IMG/VR virus record: IMGVR_UViG_3300029817_000033 | Span: 1-54,638 of that record | Strand: one strand, 5' to 3' | Origin: a virus | DNA length: 54,638 nt | Shown: positions 1 through 54,638 of the stretch, piece after piece | Layout of the letters: every line of letters begins with the position of its first letter | Numbering within the stretch: position 1 is the stretch's first letter | Notes under the pieces: model-generated | The model's database searches: none | What the model was told of the DNA's origin: nothing | What the model saw: only the letters and a program-made list of their open reading frames with translations | Translations under genes and position numbers: made by a program

Positions 1-98
1 GGTCTGGCTGGTCGTCGGCCGTGACGTGCCAGGGGATGCCCTCCTCGAAGTCGTCCTCGGCGTCGTCGGTGAGCAGCCCGCCCACGAGGATGCCGTGG
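1..98. repeat. Direct terminal repeat, left copy
   Basis: These 98 bases are identical to 54540-54637; the last base of the window (54638) is the first mismatch with base 99. The lysin frame is open through the join. This is what a linear cut of a circular or circularly permuted genome looks like, and most likely an assembly overlap rather than a packaged terminal repeat. Confidence 0.9.
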
Positions 99-643
99 AA
101 GGCGAGCATCTCCGAGTGGATGCGATCGGCCGCTCCGGGCGAGGCGACGTCGATCTCGGCGTAGGCGAACTCCTCGACATCGTCTCCAGCGAGCTTCGCC
201 GCCTGTGTCTGAGCGAACAGCCAGGCGAGCATCGTCGAGTTGGTGACGCCCTCGTCCGGCTCCGGCCCTGGCTCACCCTGGGCGATGCCATAGGCGAAGT
301 AGAGCGTCTGCGTCTCGCCGTCGGTCGGCTTGACGAAGCCAGGCTGGAACTTCCCACCCCCGAGCGCGGCCTTCGCCATGCGGTAGTGCTCGATCGCCGA
401 GAAGCCGCAGCAGCTCAGCCGGTCGTTGCAGAGCATCCCCCAGACGGTGATCCCGCCCGAGACGTCGCCGGTCGGCGGGGGAGCTCCCGGCGCCGTCGCT
501 CGGAAGCGGTCGATCAGCAGCTCGGGCACGTGAACAGCTTGGCGCTTGCCTCGCAGACCGGCCTTGCGCCTTCGAGGAGGGGACGGGGCTGCAGCAACCG
601 GGAGACCTCCCAGTTGCGGGCGATATTCGGGAGTATCGGTCAT
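1..643 (-). CDS. Lysin, N-terminal part (continues at 54539)
   Basis: This is the first part of a 594-residue lysin whose gene crosses the window ends. ATG is at 643, and the frame stays open to base 1 and joins 53398-54539 without a stop. After a basic N-terminus, residues about 60-270 resemble a papain-like cysteine peptidase module of the kind seen in phage proteins. There is a WGMLCNDR segment, a CC pair at 78-79 as nucleophile candidates, a GHDWLIVAYD segment with H219, then VTWGG. The module call is from pattern only. The full protein also has NlpC/P60 and peptidoglycan-binding domains, so it should cleave host wall peptides. It follows the beta-propeller gene after 45 bases. Confidence 0.82.
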   Translation of the reverse strand, partial: MTDTPEYRPQLGGLPVAAAPSPPRRRKAGLRGKRQAVHVPELLIDRFRATAPGAPPPTGDVSGGITVWGMLCNDRLSCCGFSAIEHYRMAKAALGGGKFQPGFVKPTDGETQTLYFAYGIAQGEPGPEPDEGVTNSTMLAWLFAQTQAAKLAGDDVEEFAYAEIDVASPGAADRIHSEMLAFHGILVGGLLTDDAEDDFEEGIPWHVTADDQPD

Positions 644-35935: not shown

Positions 35936-38413
35936 CTACGATGCGCGGGCGCCGCAGATCGGGCACTCCTCGCCGGGCTGGCTCTCGCGAGCCAGCGGGG
36001 CCTTGCAGGTCTGGCAGATCGGGTCGGAGTCGGTGACTCGCTCAGGGGCCAGCGTCTCGAACTCGGCTTCGATCTCGACGTCGTCCTCCGGCGCCGGAGC
36101 TGCGTCGCCGAGCACGAAGGCCAGAGCGCCGCAGATCGAGTCGTCCAGGTGGCGGCGCGCTCTCGTGGCCGCGACGTAGAGGAGCCGAAGCTCGCTCGGC
36201 GAGGGCTCCCCGCCATCCTTCGGCGTCGAGAAGTCGCTGCCGAGCCGAACGACGTCCCACTCCCGGCCCTTGGCCTTGTGGGCGGTCGATACAACGATGT
36301 CGGCGTCCTCCTCCTTGGCGGTGGAGTTGACCAGGTCGATGATCGTCTGCGCCCCGTACTCGTCGATGATCTTGACCATCAGCCGCAGCTCGTCGCCGTT
36401 CGGATCGAGGTCGGCGTAGTCGCGAACCTCGGTCCAGGTGGCGAAGCACGCCAGCTCCGGGTGCTCCGTGCGCCTCGGTGGCGTCGCCTGGAGATCGAGA
36501 GCAGCTCGGCAGAAGGAGGCGATGTCGCTCCCGCCGCCCATCAGGTGCACTCGGCGGCCTCGGCCGACCTCTCGGAGAGCGAAGTCGATGGCTCCGGCGT
36601 TCGTGCGGCTGAGGTACGCCTTCGGGTCGTCGTGCGGTCCGACGGCGCTCTCGTAGGGGGCTCTGCCGGTGAGCCGAAGCTCAGCTCCGGGGATGCGGGC
36701 CAGGATGACGTTCGCCACGTCGGCGATCGGCTGGCCGAAGCGGAAGCTGTTGGTCAGGAAGGTGCGGTTCCCGTCGACGCTGGCGAGGGCGTTGACTGCG
36801 CCGCGCCAGTCGTAGATCTGCTGGCAGTTGTGCGTCACGATCCCGTCGGCGACATAGGTGTGGTCATCCTCAACCCTCATGGAGTAGACGGTGCCAGCAA
36901 AGAACGGGGAACGGTAGCTCCCGGCGTTCTCGATACGGCTCCAATGGCGCTCGCCTTCGCCGCCCCTCTTCGCTGCTTCATCCGGAGTTAGAACGCTCAT
37001 GCCGTCCATGATGTTGCAGGCTCGGGTCACGAGCGCGCGCCGCAACATCAGGTTCCCGTTCGAAGGGTCCCACAGTGGGAACCTGATGTCCCTGCCATCC
37101 TCCGCCAGCGCCTTAGCGGCCCGGTTGCTGTTGTCGCCTACCATCTCCCAGAACGTCCGCACGTCCACGAGATGCGTGAGCGTCGGCTCGAATGTCCAGG
37201 TCGGGATCCCGAACTCGTGTGCTGTAAAGGCTTCCGCGAGTGCAGCCCCATCAGCTGAACTCCACATCGACAGAATCCACAGGGCGTCCGCCCCTTCTGC
37301 CTGCGCTCGAAGGACAGGACCGAATCCTCGGCCGTAGTGCGCCTGGCAGCGTCCGATGCGGTACTGACTGCCACGGCGCATCATGTAGACAAGGTGTTGA
37401 TTATCGAATGCGCCACGCAGGCGCACGATGACTCGATGATCGGGCGTATACCGAGTCACGCGACCAGCCGCCTTCACGACAACCAGGTCACCCCTGTACG
37501 GACGCTCGGAGACGCCTAGAACCTTCTTGCCTCGCAGATGCAGGTAAGAACGGGCTACGTCATATGCGACCACTACGTCACCAGCCTGAATCTGTTCGAT
37601 GGGTCGCTCCTCAATCACCGTGGCCTGTTGGCCCGATCCGGCGGTAATCACTACCTGTACCATCGTCCCGGCAGGTTGGCAGCTGTCGCCGACGAAGACG
37701 ACTTGGCACTGCTGCTGGGAGACGATCGAGAGCATCACCGGGTCGGCGTCCTGGGCCTCGTCGAAGAGGATGAAGTCGACCGGGATGACCGGGTGGTTCA
37801 GCTCCCAGAGCTTGAGGTAGCAGTCGTGCGTGAACGGCAGCGAGCCGTGAGGGTTCGCGAGGTCGTCCCATGCTGCGACCAGAGCTGGAGCGAGCGCTCG
37901 ACGAACCTCTCGGTTGTTCGACCAGCCCCGGCGACCTTCGAGCGGGGCGTCGATGCCGTCGATGTAGGGCACGTGGTCGATCGAGATGACCCGGTCGGCC
38001 GAGTGCGAGAAGTTGCGGGTCGCCTTGATGACGAGCCCGGCGAGGTAGCCCGGCGAGAGCCGCCGAGCCGCCCCGTCGACCTGGATCGTGAGCGGGTCGA
38101 TGCGGAGGCGCCGAGCGATCTCGTCGCCCCGCATGCGGACGGTCGGGAGGCGGTGCTTGTAGCGCACGCCGGTCGACCGGAAGGCCAGCGAGTGAGCCGT
38201 CGAGGCGTTCACGTTCGCTGGCATCTTGGCTTTGGCGTCCTCGACGATCGACTTGTTGAAAGCGACGTACTGGCCGCGCTTCGAGGTCGACTCGGCGATG
38301 GCGATGAGCGTCGAGGTCTTGCCGGTCCCGGCTCCGGCCTCGATCGCGAGAGAGGCGCCGGTCGCGAACAGGCGAACGGCGTCCCTCTGCTCTGCGGTGA
38401 GTTCGTGGCTCAC
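35936..38413 (-). CDS. UvrD-type helicase interrupted by an intein
   Basis: The precursor has 825 residues from a GTG at 38413. Extein parts make a 540-residue UvrD/Rep-like helicase: Walker A GAGTGKT (27-33), DEAQD (218-222), motif GDS-CQQIYDWRGA split by the intein, then VVSTAHKAKGREWDVV and LRLLYVAATRARRHLD. The C-terminus has PICQTCKAPL and CPICGARA, a zinc-ribbon candidate. The intein runs from C245 to N529, just after GDS. It is expected to splice out with C530 as the C-extein nucleophile. The helicase would act in phage replication or repair. It overlaps the upstream gene as GTGA. Confidence 0.88.
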   Translation of the reverse strand: MSHELTAEQRDAVRLFATGASLAIEAGAGTGKTSTLIAIAESTSKRGQYVAFNKSIVEDAKAKMPANVNASTAHSLAFRSTGVRYKHRLPTVRMRGDEIARRLRIDPLTIQVDGAARRLSPGYLAGLVIKATRNFSHSADRVISIDHVPYIDGIDAPLEGRRGWSNNREVRRALAPALVAAWDDLANPHGSLPFTHDCYLKLWELNHPVIPVDFILFDEAQDADPVMLSIVSQQQCQVVFVGDSCQPAGTMVQVVITAGSGQQATVIEERPIEQIQAGDVVVAYDVARSYLHLRGKKVLGVSERPYRGDLVVVKAAGRVTRYTPDHRVIVRLRGAFDNQHLVYMMRRGSQYRIGRCQAHYGRGFGPVLRAQAEGADALWILSMWSSADGAALAEAFTAHEFGIPTWTFEPTLTHLVDVRTFWEMVGDNSNRAAKALAEDGRDIRFPLWDPSNGNLMLRRALVTRACNIMDGMSVLTPDEAAKRGGEGERHWSRIENAGSYRSPFFAGTVYSMRVEDDHTYVADGIVTHNCQQIYDWRGAVNALASVDGNRTFLTNSFRFGQPIADVANVILARIPGAELRLTGRAPYESAVGPHDDPKAYLSRTNAGAIDFALREVGRGRRVHLMGGGSDIASFCRAALDLQATPPRRTEHPELACFATWTEVRDYADLDPNGDELRLMVKIIDEYGAQTIIDLVNSTAKEEDADIVVSTAHKAKGREWDVVRLGSDFSTPKDGGEPSPSELRLLYVAATRARRHLDDSICGALAFVLGDAAPAPEDDVEIEAEFETLAPERVTDSDPICQTCKAPLARESQPGEECPICGARAS
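36827..37681 (-). other. Intein (about 285 residues)
   Basis: The first residue is Cys (CQPAGTMVQVV), block B is VTRYTPDHRVIV with the TxxH motif, and the end is VYSMRVEDDHTYVADGIVTHN followed by Cys, a full set of splice residues. The middle (about residues 97-160) has LVYMMRRGSQYRIG and FGIPTWTFEP segments that loosely resemble GIY-YIG or related inserted domains, not a clear LAGLIDADG nuclease. Codon use here is more mixed at third positions than in the flanks, consistent with separate origin. Confidence 0.88.
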
Positions 38414-40959: not shown

Positions 40960-41295
40960 AGCGGCGTCCTCCCTGGTCACGACCCTGGGCGTGCCTCTGC
41001 CGTCGACGACGGCGATGAGGTCGGTGGCGATCGCCAGAGCGTCGACGTCGCCACAGGTGAAGACGTCGATGTAGGCACGAGCGAACTCCGGCCAGGTGTG
41101 GATCGAGGCGTGCGACTCGGCGAGGATGGCGAGCACCGTCACGCCCTGGGGCTTGAACTGGTGCGAGAGCGCCCGGATGACGTGAGCGCCGTGCTCCTCG
41201 CAGACCTCCGGCAGCTGAGCCAGCAGCCAGCACTCGTCGTCGAGCAGTTCGACATCGGCCTCGGTGACGTCGACGACAACGTGGCGAAGGGTCAC
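40948..41295 (-). CDS. S-adenosylmethionine decarboxylase-like (SpeD)
   Basis: The product has 115 residues from a GTG at 41295. It has the pyruvoyl-enzyme block LAESHASIHTWPEFARAYI then DVFTCG. S61 (self-cleavage to pyruvoyl), H66 and C81 have the same spacing as S63, H68 and C83 of the bacterial enzyme from Thermotoga. The family makes decarboxylated AdoMet for spermidine; some relatives are ornithine or arginine decarboxylases. The size is near the usual 120-130. It sits directly after a methyltransferase and is coupled by GTGA overlap. Its substrate here is unknown. Confidence 0.82.
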   Translation of the reverse strand: MTLRHVVVDVTEADVELLDDECWLLAQLPEVCEEHGAHVIRALSHQFKPQGVTVLAILAESHASIHTWPEFARAYIDVFTCGDVDALAIATDLIAVVDGRGTPRVVTREDAAPAV

Positions 41296-42260
41296 GGCCG
41301 GAAGACGAGTAGGTACTCGTGGATGCGAGGGGCGACCCGCGAGCGGTTCTTCTGGACGGCGAAGAGGCGGTTGATCCCGGTGAGGATGCCGTCGGTGACC
41401 CAGATGTCGTGCAGCGAGTAGCCAGCCTCCCGCATCAGGTCGATCGTATCCGCGTGGTAGGGGACGAGCTTGCCGTCCCGGTGCCAGTCGCCGACGTTGA
41501 TGACGAGGAAGGCGCCGTCCTTGAACTTCGGGTGCCAGGCTCGGGCGACCTCGGTCATGCCCTCGATGAACTCCTCGTAGGTCTTGCCGGTGCCGAGCTG
41601 CTCCGGCTCCGGCCCGTAGAACTCGATGTCCCAGTAGGGGGGCGAGTAGAAGGAGAAGTCGCCGATCCCGTCGGGCACCCAGTCGGCATTGCGCGAGTCC
41701 TGGCAGCGGACCTCGACGTGCAGCTCGGACGGGACCGCCAGCTTCTCCAGCACGTTGTTCGTGTAGGCGACGTACTCTTCGCAGCAGTCAGAGCCCCAGT
41801 AGTGGAGCCCCCGCACGACGGCGACCTGCATCTGGATGCCCTGGGCCGAGAAGGGATCGAGGTAGACCTGGCCGGGCTCGGCGTAGTACTTGATGGCGAA
41901 GTCCACCAGCTCGGCGGGCATGAAGCTCACCGAGCGCCGGTCCTTCTGCGACATCAGACCGCCGAGTATCCCCGTGAGCCCGCGCTCGCGGCGCCGCTTG
42001 GCCTTGGCTGCGGCCTCGGGAGACTTGGCCGACTCCTCCCAGAGCCGACTCGCCTTGTTGGGCATCGATCCACCCGGCCGCTCGGCGAGCAGGTTGTACA
42101 TCGAGCGCGAGAGCTGGCCGCGCGAGAGCCGGAGGATCGAGACCGGGATGAAGCCGAAGCGCTGGAGCATCTCGCGACGCTCGATCTGGCCCTTGGCGAC
42201 CGCCTCGGTGAGCTCCTCGTCGGCCTTGGCCGACAGGTCTGGCTTCTCGGCGCCGGTCAT
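41292..42260 (-). CDS. DNA methyltransferase
   Basis: The product has 322 residues. Motif I is YLDPFSAQG (133-141), with an SPPYW block at 206-210 (motif IV type), and later DGAFLVINVGDW and RLFAVQKNRSR. These are features of N4/N6 DNA methyltransferases. The N-terminal 110 residues are helical and basic. It follows the ParB-like gene (ATGA overlap) and precedes SpeD, a ParB-methyltransferase pairing common in actinophages. It probably marks phage DNA against host cutting. Confidence 0.8.
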   Translation of the reverse strand: MTGAEKPDLSAKADEELTEAVAKGQIERREMLQRFGFIPVSILRLSRGQLSRSMYNLLAERPGGSMPNKASRLWEESAKSPEAAAKAKRRRERGLTGILGGLMSQKDRRSVSFMPAELVDFAIKYYAEPGQVYLDPFSAQGIQMQVAVVRGLHYWGSDCCEEYVAYTNNVLEKLAVPSELHVEVRCQDSRNADWVPDGIGDFSFYSPPYWDIEFYGPEPEQLGTGKTYEEFIEGMTEVARAWHPKFKDGAFLVINVGDWHRDGKLVPYHADTIDLMREAGYSLHDIWVTDGILTGINRLFAVQKNRSRVAPRIHEYLLVFRP

Positions 42261-42892
42261 AGCCCAAGCCACTTTCTCAGCACGGAGTCCAGCATCTCGC
42301 CCTTCTCTCTCTTGCCCTCGTAGACGGCCTTGAAGCTCTCGAAGACGGCCACCGAGACCCGGCCCTGGTACTCGCCGAAGGTGAACGGCAGATCCTCGCT
42401 CGGCACCGGCTGGCTGCCGGGCAGCGGCGGCTCGTTCTCTCGCATCGCTAGTTCGTTGAGCAGGCGCTCCAGGTCGCCGGAGTCGAAGCCGGTGCCCTCC
42501 AACCCGCGCGTCTCCTCCAGATCGAGCAGCACCCGAGCCAGCGTGTCGTCCTTCCAGAGCCCCTCCCCGACACGGTTGAGCGCCAGCGCCATCGCGTCGG
42601 CGTGAGCGTCGTCCCTCGACTCGACGCCCACCTGGACGGGCACGAGCCAACGGCCATCGTCGTCCAGCTCGACGTTCTCGGGTGGGGCGGCTCCGCTGTC
42701 TCGGAGCGCCAGCAGCGTCTCGATCCGGCCATGTCCGGCCAGCAGGCGCCCCGTCCGGTCGTCTCGCACGATCGCCTGGACGTAGCCGAACTGCTCGAAG
42801 CTCACGGCCGTCAGCTCGTTGTCGTGGTCCTTGGCGTTCACGAGCGCCAGCTCGACGTCCTCTAGAGGCAGGTACTCGATCGCGAGCGCCAT
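42257..42892 (-). CDS. ParB-like nuclease-domain protein
   Basis: The product has 211 residues. The N-terminal domain has NAKDHDNELTAVSFEQFGYV and GRLLAGHGRIETLLAL (about 48-63), the ParB/Srx fold used by phages as a DNA or adaptor module. A central acidic linker and a C-terminal VAVFESFKAVYEGKREKGEML helix follow. In phages such proteins are usually paired with methyltransferases, as here. Confidence 0.78.
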   Translation of the reverse strand: MALAIEYLPLEDVELALVNAKDHDNELTAVSFEQFGYVQAIVRDDRTGRLLAGHGRIETLLALRDSGAAPPENVELDDDGRWLVPVQVGVESRDDAHADAMALALNRVGEGLWKDDTLARVLLDLEETRGLEGTGFDSGDLERLLNELAMRENEPPLPGSQPVPSEDLPFTFGEYQGRVSVAVFESFKAVYEGKREKGEMLDSVLRKWLGL

Positions 42893-44280: not shown

Positions 44281-45296
44281 GCCGGGTACTCGTCCCAGAG
44301 CTTGCCGTCGAGATGGCGCCCCGCCGCTCTCTTGCCACAGCGATGGAGCCGGACGAGGGACCTCCACTCTCCGGTCTCCAGTAGCCGGGCTCGCTGCTCG
44401 TCCTCGGCCCAGGGGTCGGCGGTCGTCGTACCGTCGTGAGCGAGGTAAGTCGCTCGGCCGTCGTTGACGATCGAGCCCCATTCGCCCCATTGCTTGAACA
44501 GGAACGGCACGGAGCGGCCGTCGCAGTCGCACTCGGGAGGCTCCCAGGGCCCGGCCCAGTCGTCCCGGCCGTCGAGCCAGAGCGAGAGCGAGCACCAGTC
44601 GGCGTGGGTGCCCTTCGCACAGAGCCAGCGCATCTCGCGAGCCCAGTCGGGGTGCATCGGCCGGGCCTTCGGTCCCGACTCGCCACCGACGATCACCCAG
44701 TCGATCCCTCGGAGATCGAGCGCCTGGTAGACCGAACCGAGCAGCGGCTCGATCGAGAGGAACCGCACGGCGGCCGGGGTCTCCAGCAGATGCCCGGCCC
44801 GGAACTGGTACGGCTTGCTCTCGATCGAGACGCCCAGCCAGACGTTCGCGAGCGGCCAGTCAAAGTCTCCGGCAGCAGCGCCCCGGACGTCGTCGACGAG
44901 TCGGATGAACTCCCGATCGTGCAGTAGCCGGGCCATCCGTTGCGGACGCTTCGTGAGCACCTGGAAGGTGTGTTGCCTGGCTCGCTCCATCGTGGCGAAG
45001 ACGGCCGCGATGAACTCGGCGGGGACGTCGGGGTGGAACAGGTCGCTCATCGAGTCGACGAAGATGCGCCGGGGCTTCGCCCAGTGAAGCGGGTCTTCGA
45101 GGCGCTCGCGCAACAGCCGGACCTCCCCGGTGAAGACCCCGTCGACGGCGAGCCCGGCGTAGGTCGGGAACTGCCGGAGCCGCCCCGACGCCTCTCGTGC
45201 CGCGTAGCAGTGCTCGCAGCCCGGCGAGACCTCTTCGCACCCGACGGTCGGGTTCCAGGTGGCGTCAGTCCACTCGATCTTGCTTTCGCTGCTCAC
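44277..45296 (-). CDS. DUF5131 (Gp37/Gp68-type) Cys-motif protein
   Basis: The product has 339 residues. GTG 45296 is preceded by AGGGAGG. The start (KIEWTDATWNPTVGCEEVSPGCEHC) is the family hallmark, with Cys at 20, 27 and 30, consistent with a radical-SAM-like or metal site. Further parts are RRIFVDSMSDLFHPDVP, VLTKRPQRM and WVIVGGESGPKARPMHPDW. Chemistry is not established. It overlaps the upstream gene by 32 bases. Confidence 0.78.
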   Translation of the reverse strand: MSSESKIEWTDATWNPTVGCEEVSPGCEHCYAAREASGRLRQFPTYAGLAVDGVFTGEVRLLRERLEDPLHWAKPRRIFVDSMSDLFHPDVPAEFIAAVFATMERARQHTFQVLTKRPQRMARLLHDREFIRLVDDVRGAAAGDFDWPLANVWLGVSIESKPYQFRAGHLLETPAAVRFLSIEPLLGSVYQALDLRGIDWVIVGGESGPKARPMHPDWAREMRWLCAKGTHADWCSLSLWLDGRDDWAGPWEPPECDCDGRSVPFLFKQWGEWGSIVNDGRATYLAHDGTTTADPWAEDEQRARLLETGEWRSLVRLHRCGKRAAGRHLDGKLWDEYPA

Positions 45297-46635
45297 GTTG
45301 CGCCTCCCTTCGGCGACGGTGCTCCAGCGCTCGGGTCTCCACGAAGGCGAACGTCGTCGGCGTGTGCTTCGTGAAGTGCTGGATGGCATAGAGAGCGGTC
45401 AGCCCGACATCGGCCAACTCGGTCAGCAGGTCGTCCATGTCGCCGTACTCGCCCTTACGGGGGTTCTGCCCGGTGATGCCGATGAGGGCGTCGATCGCCT
45501 CGCCCGCCTCCTCGACGACCTTGGAGACTCGTGCCCAGTCCTGGGCGAGCGGCTGCTCCTTGTACCGCTCGGAGACGAAGCCGTCGAGGTCGGCGTCCAT
45601 CCACTCGACGCAAGCGACGAGGTTCTCGTAGAAGTTCCCCATCAGTCGGGGAGCTTCATGGTGGATCGCCGTGACGTGCTCCTCGGAGCACCCGGCGTCG
45701 CGGCAGAGCGCCGCGTAGTTGAGGATGGCGTCGGCTGCGAGCTTGTCTTGCGCTCGGAGCACGAAGCAGGGCTCGTCCTCCTCTAGAGGCTTGTGGCCCT
45801 CGCGAACCTCGACGGTGAACTTGGCGTCGTGCATGGCTCCTCCTTGTTGGGTTGGTTGGTCGGTCGGTTGATCGTGGTTCGTCGTCGGGGCGAACAGTTG
45901 CAGCTCCTCGCCCCGGTGAGCGATCTCCCGGCAGTAGCCAGCCGAGAGTTCGAGCCCGACGACGCCGCGACCGAGACGCCGGGCTTCATAGATCGTCGTG
46001 CCGGAGCCGACGAAGGGATCGAGGACAACGTCACCGGGCCAGGTCGCGAGCCAGAGGCAGCGCCGGACTAGCTCGGCGGGGAAGGGAGCCGGGTGGTTGG
46101 CGAGCCTCTTCGCCGTGGCGAAGCTCCAGATGGACTTGGTGATCTCCAGGAAGGCATCGGTTGGGCAGTCGTTCGGTCCCGTCCGGCCCCGAGCGAACGG
46201 CGGCCGGAAGAACCAGAGCACCACCTCGTGACGGCCTCGGACGTTCGGTGCGTTCGGTGAGAGCCAGCTCCCCCACGAGCACGGGGCGTCCTTGCCGAAC
46301 TGCTCCCAGACGATGAGCATGCGGTAGTCGAGCCCCGCCGCAGCGAGCGCCTCGCGCCAGACGAGGTCGGGCGCCCAGCGGGACGAGCCTCGTCCTCCGG
46401 GGTCGCTCTGGGCATCGGTAGGCACGTTGACGAAGCAGCGGCCACCAGGCACGAGCACGCGCTCGAACTCGATCGCCCAGTCCTCGACTCGGGCCTGGTA
46501 GACGTCGGGTGGGCAGTAGTCGTCCACGCCGTCGTAGTCCATCCCCAGGTTGTAGGGCGGGGATGTCACAATGCAGTCGACCGACTCCGATCGGATCGGG
46601 AGCCGAGCTGCGTCGGCCTGGACGACGTCGCTCAA
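45265..46635 (-). CDS. DNA methyltransferase fused to MazG-like domain
   Basis: The product has 456 residues from a TTG at 46635 that overlaps the ASCH gene stop (TTGA). Residues 1-250 are a beta-class DNA methyltransferase: SPPYN at 25-29, LVPGGRCFVNVP at 61-72, VVLDPFVGSGTT at 203-214. A Thr/Gln/Pro linker (about 250-267) leads in frame, with no stop, to a second module that ends in a MazG-like motif (KVVEEAGEAIDALIG, LLTELADVGLTALYA). MazG enzymes hydrolyse nucleotide triphosphates. A good internal start exists at 45834. Confidence 0.8.
   Translation of the reverse strand: MSDVVQADAARLPIRSESVDCIVTSPPYNLGMDYDGVDDYCPPDVYQARVEDWAIEFERVLVPGGRCFVNVPTDAQSDPGGRGSSRWAPDLVWREALAAAGLDYRMLIVWEQFGKDAPCSWGSWLSPNAPNVRGRHEVVLWFFRPPFARGRTGPNDCPTDAFLEITKSIWSFATAKRLANHPAPFPAELVRRCLWLATWPGDVVLDPFVGSGTTIYEARRLGRGVVGLELSAGYCREIAHRGEELQLFAPTTNHDQPTDQPTQQGGAMHDAKFTVEVREGHKPLEEDEPCFVLRAQDKLAADAILNYAALCRDAGCSEEHVTAIHHEAPRLMGNFYENLVACVEWMDADLDGFVSERYKEQPLAQDWARVSKVVEEAGEAIDALIGITGQNPRKGEYGDMDDLLTELADVGLTALYAIQHFTKHTPTTFAFVETRALEHRRRREAQREQRKQDRVD
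45834..45850 (-). promoter_or_regulatory. Internal RBS and start for MazG-like module
   Basis: AAGGAGGAGCC directly precedes ATG at 45834, in frame within the fused gene. This would give a 189-residue MazG-like protein alone. The strong ribosome binding site suggests both fused and separate forms. Confidence 0.6.
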
Positions 46636-47090
46636 GGAGCCCACTCCCAGAGCCCTTGCTTGCCTCTCGCCGGGACCGGCTCGGGGAGCCTTGTGATCTC
46701 GCCGAGCAGCCAGGCGTAGCGCCCCGGCGTGAAGTCGCCGTAGCCGGGTTGGGGGTCGTCGATGGAGAAGCAGAAGCCCTCGGTCGGGACGACATCGAGC
46801 AGCTCGCACGTCGCGAGCACGGAGCCGAAGGGTGGCGTGATGTAGCCCTGCTGGTAGCCCTCGCCAGCAGCACACTCGTGCCACAGCTCGTAGCCGTCAC
46901 AGAGCCCGTAGACCTCGGCCAAAGCCTCCCAGGCAACGTCGGAGCCCGGGAAGGCCCAGGCAGCTCCCATCACGGAGGCGTGGATCGCGAGAGGACCCCG
47001 GTAGCTCGTCTTCCACGACCGCGTCTCGATCGTCTTCACGCCCTCGGCGACGAGCGACGCCCAGGGCTGCCAGAGCGTGAGCGCCTTCAT
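46632..47090 (-). CDS. ASCH-domain protein
   Basis: The product has 152 residues. It opens MKALTLWQPWASLVAEGVKT then IETRSWKTSYRGPLAIHAS, the RNA-binding/ASCH signature. These act on RNA or modified nucleotides; some bind modified bases. It precedes the methyltransferase and overlaps it by four bases. Confidence 0.8.
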   Translation of the reverse strand: MKALTLWQPWASLVAEGVKTIETRSWKTSYRGPLAIHASVMGAAWAFPGSDVAWEALAEVYGLCDGYELWHECAAGEGYQQGYITPPFGSVLATCELLDVVPTEGFCFSIDDPQPGYGDFTPGRYAWLLGEITRLPEPVPARGKQGLWEWAP

Positions 47091-51849: not shown

Positions 51850-51860
51850 TCAGTGAGCGG
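51846..51860 (-). other. 15-base palindrome at end of lysis cassette
   Basis: CCGCTCA-G-TGAGCGG surrounds the stop codon of the 51850 gene. The loop is too short for a good hairpin, so it could be a protein site or a weak terminator. Confidence 0.3.
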
Positions 51861-52185
51861 CGTGCGCTCCCTTCGGCGAGCCGATCGCCGTGAGCGCGCG
51901 GTTGACCGCGCGGCCCGCGCTCGTCGTCTTGAAGACGATCGGGTAGGCGATCGTCGCCCAGGTGAAGATGAGCCCGGCGAGCCCGGCGACATTCGGGGCG
52001 TTGAAGAGGCTCGGCTGGTCGATCGCCACGGCGGCGCAAGCCACGGCGGCCGACACGACCATGCAGACGCCCTGGGCGACCTGGCTCGGCCAGTTCTCGT
52101 GCTTGATGAGGCTCGTCACCGGAGTCGCCACGATGCCACCGATGACGACGATCAGCGTGATCGTCGCCGCTGAGAGGTCGTTCAC
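51850..52185 (-). CDS. Small membrane protein, holin-like
   Basis: The product has 111 residues from a GTG at 52185, after AAAGGAGGGATC. Three hydrophobic segments (TITLIVVIGGIVATPV; GVCMVVSAAVACAAVAI; AGLAGLIFTWATIAYPIVF) suggest three helices. It is the last gene of the lysis cassette and a holin candidate. Confidence 0.6.
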   Translation of the reverse strand: MNDLSAATITLIVVIGGIVATPVTSLIKHENWPSQVAQGVCMVVSAAVACAAVAIDQPSLFNAPNVAGLAGLIFTWATIAYPIVFKTTSAGRAVNRALTAIGSPKGAHAAH

Positions 52186-52514
52186 GATCCCTCCTTTGGA
52201 GGTAGTTCCGGGATGTCCGGGTGGTGCAGGATGATGTGGCCGAGCATCCGGCGCAGCTCCTCCCGGTCCTCGCGAGCACTCGTCATGTGCTCGTGCAGGG
52301 GCTTGAGCTTGTCGTCCACGAAGCGGTGCGCCGCCCTGCCGATGGCTCGCCGGAGCGGCGGCCAGAGTGTCGCCCCGACCACGGCGCCGAAGGCGATGGC
52401 GATGATCTGCTCGCTGGCGTTGGTGAACCAGTTGCCGGGCGTGAACCCCCATGCCAGGAAGTGCCGAAGGTGGTCCAGGTCGTAGACCACGTTGGCGTGG
52501 ATGAAGGCGATCAC
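52182..52514 (-). CDS. Membrane protein with coiled tail
   Basis: The product has 110 residues from a GTG at 52514 overlapping the previous stop as GTGA. It has a hydrophobic segment (IIAIAFGAVVGATLWPPL) and a charged, helical C-terminal half with HEHMTSAREDREELRRML and HILHHPDIP-type residues. A holin or anti-holin is possible. Confidence 0.55.
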   Translation of the reverse strand: MIAFIHANVVYDLDHLRHFLAWGFTPGNWFTNASEQIIAIAFGAVVGATLWPPLRRAIGRAAHRFVDDKLKPLHEHMTSAREDREELRRMLGHIILHHPDIPELPPKEGS

Positions 52515-52951
52515 GAGGGCACCGATCCCACAACCAGCAACGTTAGACCTACGGCGCTCAGCAGCACGGCATACGCCTTGAGGAAGCCTCGGAGCCCCCG
52601 GCGCTTCTCCCAGCCGATCCACCCGGCGACGGCCAGGCACGCCCCTCCGCTCACGAGCAGCGCCGTTGTCCGAGCGAACAGAAAGAACGGCAGCACAGGG
52701 ACGAAGCTCCCCAGGAACGTGCTCACCCCCATCGCCACAGCGTTGCGGAGCTTCTCGTGCCAGAGCCCGTCCTGCGCCTCGTAGATGCCCCAGCTCATGC
52801 TCACCGTCGCTGCGATCGCCCCGCCGAGCCCTCCCGAGGCGACCATCTGGCGCGAGGCGTGGTGGACGAGCAGGCCGAAGAGGAACCCGACGACCGAGAC
52901 GACGCCGTCGAAGGCGCCGAAGATGGCGTCCTCGCGCTCGGCGGTGTCCAC
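52511..52951 (-). CDS. VIT/CCC1-like membrane protein
   Basis: The product has 146 residues from a GTG at 52951, after GGAGAG. It has FGAFDGVVSVVGFLFGL (11-27), then SMSWGIYEAQDG (51-62), LGSFVPVLPFFLFA and LLVSGGACLAVAGWIGW, matching the DG and GxY motifs of VIT-type iron/manganese transporters. It is shorter than the usual 220-240 because the metal-binding insert between helices two and three is absent. Its place in the lysis cassette is unexpected. Confidence 0.65.
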   Translation of the reverse strand: MDTAEREDAIFGAFDGVVSVVGFLFGLLVHHASRQMVASGGLGGAIAATVSMSWGIYEAQDGLWHEKLRNAVAMGVSTFLGSFVPVLPFFLFARTTALLVSGGACLAVAGWIGWEKRRGLRGFLKAYAVLLSAVGLTLLVVGSVPS

Positions 52952-52953
52952 GG

Positions 52954-53394
52954 CTACTCTCCGGCGAGCCGCAGTTCCAGTTGGCGCTCCCGCTCTCGAA
53001 CGAGGGCGATCTCCCGGTCCATCCGTTCCGTCGTCGCCCGGGACCACCCGAGATGTTCGGCGAAGTCCTGCTGGAGCGTCGTGACGATCCCGTTAGTGCT
53101 CTTGGCGAATTCTTCGGTGCGCTTCGCCGTGTCCCCCACGGCGTCGCTCTCCCCGCCGTTGACTCTGGTCCTCAGCATCAACAGATCGAGCTTCTGGCTG
53201 TCGGTGAGTCCCTGCTCGGCCTTCTCCTCTTCGACCCGAGTGACGGCCTTGTCGATCCTGTAGGACTTGACGGCTCGGCGAGCGCGCCAGCGGTCAGCGG
53301 CGACGGCGATGCTCCCGATACCGAGAGTCGCCGAGACGGTCCAGATGACGGTGGCGATGTCGACGCCGGGCGCAGGGGTGACCGCGGCGAGCAC
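52954..53394 (-). CDS. Membrane-anchored coiled-coil protein
   Basis: The product has 146 residues from a GTG at 53394. One N-terminal hydrophobic helix (VIWTVSATLGIGSIAVAA) is followed by a charged helical part with many Glu, Lys and Arg. It begins four bases after the lysin stop. A spanin- or holin-like role is possible, not shown. Confidence 0.6.
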   Translation of the reverse strand: MLAAVTPAPGVDIATVIWTVSATLGIGSIAVAADRWRARRAVKSYRIDKAVTRVEEEKAEQGLTDSQKLDLLMLRTRVNGGESDAVGDTAKRTEEFAKSTNGIVTTLQQDFAEHLGWSRATTERMDREIALVRERERQLELRLAGE

Positions 53395-53397
53395 GGC

Positions 53398-54638
53398 TCA
53401 CGCTTCCAAAGCGGCCCAGGTGAGGGGACCAACGATCCCGTCGACCTCCAGGCCCTTCGAGTGCTGGAAGTCGACGACGGCCGACTCGGTGTCCTCCCCG
53501 TAGATGCCGTCGACGCCATCGGGGCCGAGCTGCTCGCCGAAGCCGTGCTTGACGAGATCCTCCTGGCAGAGCTTCACGGCCGGGCCTGTCAGGTTCGGCT
53601 CCGTGAGGAACAGCTCCGGCCTGGCTGGAGCTGGCTTGCCGGGAGTCGGCACTCTCGTCGCCTTGAGAGCGATGTCGATGGCTCCCCAGTAGGCGAGCCC
53701 GTTCGTGCTCTCGCGGTCGATGACCGACGAGAACTCCGAGTAGCAGACGCCGGACGCCTCGTCGAAGGCGCTGATCATCATGAGGGCGCCGCCCGGGACG
53801 ACAGGGCCGACACAGACGCCGACGTGGCCGGGTCGCTTCGTGCCGGGGCCGGGAGGCTCGCCCCCGTAGGTGAAGACGAGCATGCCAGCGAGCGGCTCGC
53901 CCTCGTAGATGGTGAACTCGGGGTCGAAGAACTGGTCATGCGAGCCGTGCGCCAGCGGGACGCCGCAGTCCTCGCCGATGTTCTCCGTCAGCCCAGAGCA
54001 GTCGACGCCCTCTCGGGTCGTGCCTCCCCAGACATAGGGGACGCCGAGCCACGAGCGCGCGTCGGCAACGATGCCCTCGCGGACCGCCTTGACGGTGAAC
54101 TTCGCCTCGTCAGGGCTAGCGACGCCCAGCAGCGTCTCGATCTCCTCTTCGACCTTCTCGGCCGCCTCCTCGACGAAGTGCTCGATCTCTTGGACGAGGC
54201 TCGGATCGGGGGTCGGCGCCGGAGGGGCGGGAGAGGGCGTCGGAGCTGGTGCTGGCGGCGTTGGAGCCGGAGGGGTCGGAGCTGGCGCTGGCGGGTTCTC
54301 GGCGACGCCACCGAGGGCCCTGCAGGCCGCCAGCATGGCGTCGAAGTCAGCTCCCGAGCGCTCGGCGTCCTCGCGGGTGGCGATGACCCACGCCTCTTGG
54401 ATCGCATCGCTGTCGAACTCGATGTCGGCCCACTGGAGTCCTCCCCAGGTCACCCCCAGGTCACCCACAGGGTAGCCGTCGATCTCCTTCGTACCGGTGG
54501 CGTCATAGGCGACGATGAGCCAGTCGTGGCCGTCGTTCGGGTCTGGCTGGTCGTCGGCCGTGACGTGCCAGGGGATGCCCTCCTCGAAGTCGTCCTCGGC
54601 GTCGTCGGTGAGCAGCCCGCCCACGAGGATGCCGTGGG
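53398..54638 (-). CDS. Lysin, C-terminal part
   Basis: This is the continuation of the 643-to-1 gene; the frame is open to the window end, so a GTG at 54624 is not the true start. In the joined 594-residue protein, the end of the papain-like module is followed by a Pro/Ala/Thr linker (about 296-330), an NlpC/P60 domain (about 375-505) with C395 in VDCSG and H453 in PGHVGV, and a peptidoglycan-binding domain (about 532-594: VKLCQEDL, DGIYGEDTESAVVDFQ, VDGIVGPLTWAAL). It should break wall peptide links. Confidence 0.88.
   Translation of the reverse strand, partial: HGILVGGLLTDDAEDDFEEGIPWHVTADDQPDPNDGHDWLIVAYDATGTKEIDGYPVGDLGVTWGGLQWADIEFDSDAIQEAWVIATREDAERSGADFDAMLAACRALGGVAENPPAPAPTPPAPTPPAPAPTPSPAPPAPTPDPSLVQEIEHFVEEAAEKVEEEIETLLGVASPDEAKFTVKAVREGIVADARSWLGVPYVWGGTTREGVDCSGLTENIGEDCGVPLAHGSHDQFFDPEFTIYEGEPLAGMLVFTYGGEPPGPGTKRPGHVGVCVGPVVPGGALMMISAFDEASGVCYSEFSSVIDRESTNGLAYWGAIDIALKATRVPTPGKPAPARPELFLTEPNLTGPAVKLCQEDLVKHGFGEQLGPDGVDGIYGEDTESAVVDFQHSKGLEVDGIVGPLTWAALEA
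54540..54637. repeat. Direct terminal repeat, right copy
   Basis: Identical to 1-98. Joining the two copies restores one lysin gene. Confidence 0.9.

Follow-up and report, generated by a model that had tools for sequence, protein, structure and literature searches.

The window analysed here, 54,638 nt in length, is the whole of IMG/VR virus record IMGVR_UViG_3300029817_000033. Its two ends share 98 bases in a direct overlap (positions 1-98 equal 54540-54637, with one extra last base), and the endolysin ORF also reads through the joint; the contig thus probably represents an entire phage genome, either circular or circularly permuted. Genes for portal, head, terminase and tail proteins, a helicase, SSB and a Gam-like protein confirmed that it belongs to a tailed phage, the nearest named relatives of the portal protein being actinobacteriophages at approximately 30% identity. 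On the minus strand we found a lysis operon in which transcription runs from an endolysin gene through genes for a coiled-coil protein with one transmembrane (TM) helix, a predicted VIT1/CCC1-family (VIT) protein and a second single-TM protein to a gene for a three-TM holin-like protein, neighbouring genes being separated by short gaps or overlapping at their starts and stops:

1..592, minus strand: endolysin, N-terminal part, if the contig is circular (same ORF read across the contig ends)
53398..54636, minus strand: endolysin, C-terminal part, with NlpC/P60 peptidase and peptidoglycan-binding (PG_binding_1) domains (Pfam, PHROG)
52954..53394, minus strand: 146-aa protein with an N-terminal TM helix (13-31) followed by a charged tail, probably a coiled coil, directly upstream of the VIT gene; no family match
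52511..52951, minus strand: predicted VIT1/CCC1-family membrane protein of 146 aa lacking the metal-binding domain (PF01988 match and alignment; five helices predicted)
52182..52517, minus strand: protein of about 111 aa with one clear TM helix, its GTG start overlapping the VIT stop (GTGA); no family match
51850..52185, minus strand: protein of about 111 aa with three TM helices, a holin-like candidate, with Shine-Dalgarno sequence AAGGAGG and a GTGA overlap with the preceding gene; no family match

The original prediction had placed a VIT/CCC1-like gene at 52511-52951 within a lysis cassette, and both the position and the setting were supported: the minus-strand ORF has a GTG start, a TGA stop and 146 codons for amino acids, with the peptidoglycan hydrolase gene upstream and the three-TM protein gene downstream. 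Its start lies 2 nt past the stop of the preceding gene and is preceded at 5 nt by a Shine-Dalgarno sequence (GGAGAG), while its TGA overlaps the GTG of the following gene (GTGA). The GC content by codon position (0.68/0.49/0.90) resembles that of the neighbours. A VIT gene located in flanking host DNA was ruled out by the surrounding terminase, portal, head, tail, lysis and replication genes and by the overlapping contig ends. The three small neighbours of the VIT gene had no Pfam or PHROG family and no convincing phage relatives, and neither the endolysin nor the holin candidate had relatives in IMG/VR. The endolysin ORF read across the joint (53398-54638 plus 1-592, minus strand) comprises an N-terminal region with no Pfam match, a Pro-rich linker, the NlpC/P60 domain and the peptidoglycan-binding domain.

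The 146-aa protein matched the Pfam VIT1 profile PF01988 with an E-value of 9.1e-13 and 48.9 bits, above the curated cut-off of 28.1, and this match was confirmed on the genome. The alignment consisted of two stretches in the correct order (profile positions 3-53 and 132-212). A second profile, built from eight cellular VIT sequences with the phage protein left out, scored the phage protein at 50.4 bits, whereas the best of 2000 hydrophobicity-preserving shuffles of the same protein reached 12.1 bits. The notion that the resemblance merely reflects the general make-up of a small membrane protein rich in Gly and Ala has in its favour that an unconstrained structure model did not land on VIT (pLDDT 53), but it was refuted by the shuffle control, and a match above the Pfam cut-off in two separate, correctly ordered VIT blocks leaves it a negligible chance. 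An alignment profile that included the phage protein retrieved the crystal structure of EgVIT1 (6IU3) at an E-value of 4.9e-64, a match that was used to calibrate EgVIT1 residue numbering. The protein also matched TIGR00267 (NCBIfam), whose members are likewise short, MBD-poor VIT relatives, at an E-value of 2e-9 in two stretches, but its 37.2 bits fall below the equivalog cut-off of 156.95 and do not place it in that equivalog. Against known holin families there was no PHROG match up to an E-value of 1, and Pfam returned VIT1 alone. On these sequence comparisons the phage protein is almost certainly a VIT homologue, and the predicted VIT/CCC1 likeness was borne out. The motifs first used to recognise it fared unequally: FDG is real (F14-D15-G16 within FGAFDG), while GIY (residues 55-57) directly follows the conserved SM of TM2 and has no diagnostic value of its own.

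The cytoplasmic metal-binding domain (MBD) defines canonical VIT1 proteins and is absent from VTLs. As predicted, this insert is missing from the phage protein: profile positions 54-131 of PF01988 have no counterpart, and the alignment shows that the MBD between TM2 and TM3 has gone and that a loop just a few residues long takes its place. With this loss and a shorter TM4-TM5 loop, the protein has 146 aa compared with approximately 220-250 aa in VIT1/CCC1 proteins. It nevertheless shares with them (PF01988; EgVIT1, 6IU3) the TM1 motif G..DG with its metal-binding Asp, the TM2 motif SM with its metal-binding Met and the TM3 motif G.xxPxxP[FY], and is predicted to have five helices. In 6IU3 numbering, Asp43 of EgVIT1 aligned with D15 and Met80 with M52, the 37-residue spacing being identical and gap-free, whereas the position of Glu72, the proton-relay residue of canonical VIT1, is occupied by Gly44. 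Asp43, Met80 and Glu72 are each essential in EgVIT1 (PMC10794610), so that two of these three transport residues are kept. Loss of key charged residues had been named as evidence against a VIT protein; the alignment favours a VIT protein in that the Asp43 and Met80 equivalents remain, but Glu72 has been replaced by Gly, as it is in the functional plant protein MtVTL8. Seven of the alignment columns that the phage protein covers show no variation among the eight cellular VITs, and it keeps six of these residues (G12, D15, G16, G41, M52 and P88), at an overall identity to cellular VITs of about 30%. Survival of the Asp/Met pair at this divergence favours a working metal path.

Plant VTL proteins also have no MBD, and MtVTL8, which carries Gly at the Glu72 position, still transports iron and requires both that Gly and its Asp to do so (PMC10794610). 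Loss of the MBD and the presence of Gly44 are thus compatible with transport, and Glu72 is not a defining residue of the wider VIT family. MtVTL8 differs from the phage protein in being eukaryotic and in having, between TM2 and TM3, a single helix in the cytoplasm, together with a pair formed by a TM1 Arg and a TM2 Glu. The phage protein clearly shows neither feature (Glu100, the glutamate in TM2, lacks an exact equivalent, the position being I56); we regard the relationship as an analogy and not as a tested sister grouping. The nearest cellular VITs found came from soil MAGs labelled Bacillota, with 30-35% identity over the aligned parts, and most carry an MBD. The closest cellular sequences are the MbfA iron exporters (ferritin-like plus VIT) and related bacterial VITs such as L003 and L013; unlike the phage protein, these possess both an MBD and a ferritin-like extension at the N terminus. 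L003 and its nearest kin share its Gly at the Glu72 position. We also noted a short bacterial MBD-less VIT gene (L007:643-1755) directly downstream of a FUR-family regulator, with a sequence that weakly matches a ferrous iron permease close by. This arrangement indicates that bacterial MBD-less VITs can be metal genes, and that loss of the MBD alone does not equate to loss of metal function.

An AlphaFold (AF2) model computed from a three-sequence alignment contained five helices (3-33, 38-59, 64-92, 95-116 and 120-143) with a pLDDT of 53 and a pTM of 0.34. VIA-align applied to this low-confidence model returned common helical bundles only, and the absence of 6IU3 from the list tells neither way; we infer the VIT fold from homology in the sequence only.

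BLAST or short exact pattern scans, which would miss distant relatives, found no VIT relatives in 50,697 phage records (INPHARED) or in 72,556 plasmids (PLSDB), and scans of similarly limited sensitivity found none in IMG/VR. The sole pattern hit (L045) lay opposite a coding frame and had no VIT match. A VIT in a virus is not in itself new, since VIT1 is listed among viral genes in a study of giant viruses (PMC7162819), and short MBD-less VITs are already known from plants and also from bacteria. A 146-aa VIT encoded in a phage lysis operon did not turn up in the phage, plasmid and IMG/VR collections or the literature searched.

The most likely reading is that the gene, expressed together with lysis, encodes a VIT-type transporter of divalent metals that lacks the MBD, with co-option as a lysis-membrane factor as a close rival; that active metal transport is the function under selection has, in our estimate, about an even chance. 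The product would be a minimal five-helix VIT1/CCC1-family transporter, translated third in a late lysis operon and inserted as a dimer in the host cytoplasmic membrane, where, in the manner of VIT proteins, it would carry Fe2+ and/or Mn2+ out of the cytoplasm in exchange for protons. Its activity would fall at the close of infection, and a leak of this kind would then draw on the proton motive force as well. In a published transcriptome of infection by the actinophage WC1 of Rhodococcus, the host VIT exporter gene is strongly repressed, which the authors of that study read as raising intracellular iron (PMC10986025). This suggests that phages may prefer to retain iron, which would count against an exporter; because a phage-borne exporter would oppose such a rise in iron, a late, lysis-linked role appears more sensible than one lasting throughout infection.

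The location within the lysis operon counts against plain metal transport and points to a function at the membrane during lysis. In that case a VIT scaffold would have been recruited for its compact helical bundle and reused as a holin-like protein, antiholin or depolariser, its metal path being either a leftover or a route by which protons or ions leak and the membrane potential collapses. We consider this a credible explanation, if a tentative one. The gene sits between those for the endolysin and the three-TM holin-like protein with overlapping starts and stops, and the part lost, the MBD, is the one that captures metal. A survey of actinobacteriophage lysis cassettes describes as many as four unrelated holin-like TM proteins with 1-4 helices, often of 113-180 aa and in varied combinations (PMC9671378), to which the phage VIT is similar in gene position, size and small multi-TM character. 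These proteins have 1-4 TM helices and no conserved metal-site residues, and VIT homology is not reported for them in the sections consulted (PMC9671378). In Gordonia phages, a cassette can contain as many as four distinct holin-like TM proteins, each with 1-4 helices; none of those in the survey has five (PMC9671378), so that a five-helix VIT falls outside that description. Reuse in lysis is also opposed by the lack of any VIT among the phage records searched and by the survival of the two metal-site residues along with most of the invariant positions, which would be unexpected if metal binding were irrelevant. Transport and lysis are not mutually exclusive, given that a VIT metal/proton exchanger expressed at the time of lysis would tap the proton motive force too. 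That the membrane core serves as a regulated ion/proton exchanger which discharges the membrane, contributing to lysis through coupled metal transport and not through a hole, strikes us as rather improbable. Similarly unlikely is a recent moron, acquired from the bacterial host and landing in the lysis operon by chance and mattering little or not at all to the phage. The failure to find a relative among phage or IMG/VR sequences is what a singleton insertion would give, but an identity of only about 30-35% to the nearest cellular VITs found, the lack of space for an independent promoter, translational coupling on both sides and a codon pattern like that of the neighbours (GC3 of 0.90 compared with 0.85-0.94) all point to long residence.

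Should the phage protein transport metal, it would represent a VIT-type transporter that a phage carries and deploys in step with lysis, and its very small size would make it a natural test of what the VIT membrane core can do once the MBD and Glu72 are gone. Should it instead act in lysis, it would show that transporter folds can be taken up by phages into lysis cassettes, whose many and diverse holin-like proteins mostly lack an explanation.

No further metal-homeostasis genes were found among the phage proteins scanned, a result that speaks against the transport reading. The helicase gene (phrog_1967; 35936-38413, minus strand) shows an alignment insertion and, below threshold, a match to intein splicing (E-value 0.002), suggesting a possible intein, and two N6/N4 DNA methyltransferase-like genes are also present (41292-42650 and 45265-46884, both minus strand). 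The major head protein was found at 100% identity in four IMG/VR fragments from other samples (L040-L043), indicating that this phage recurs across metagenomes.
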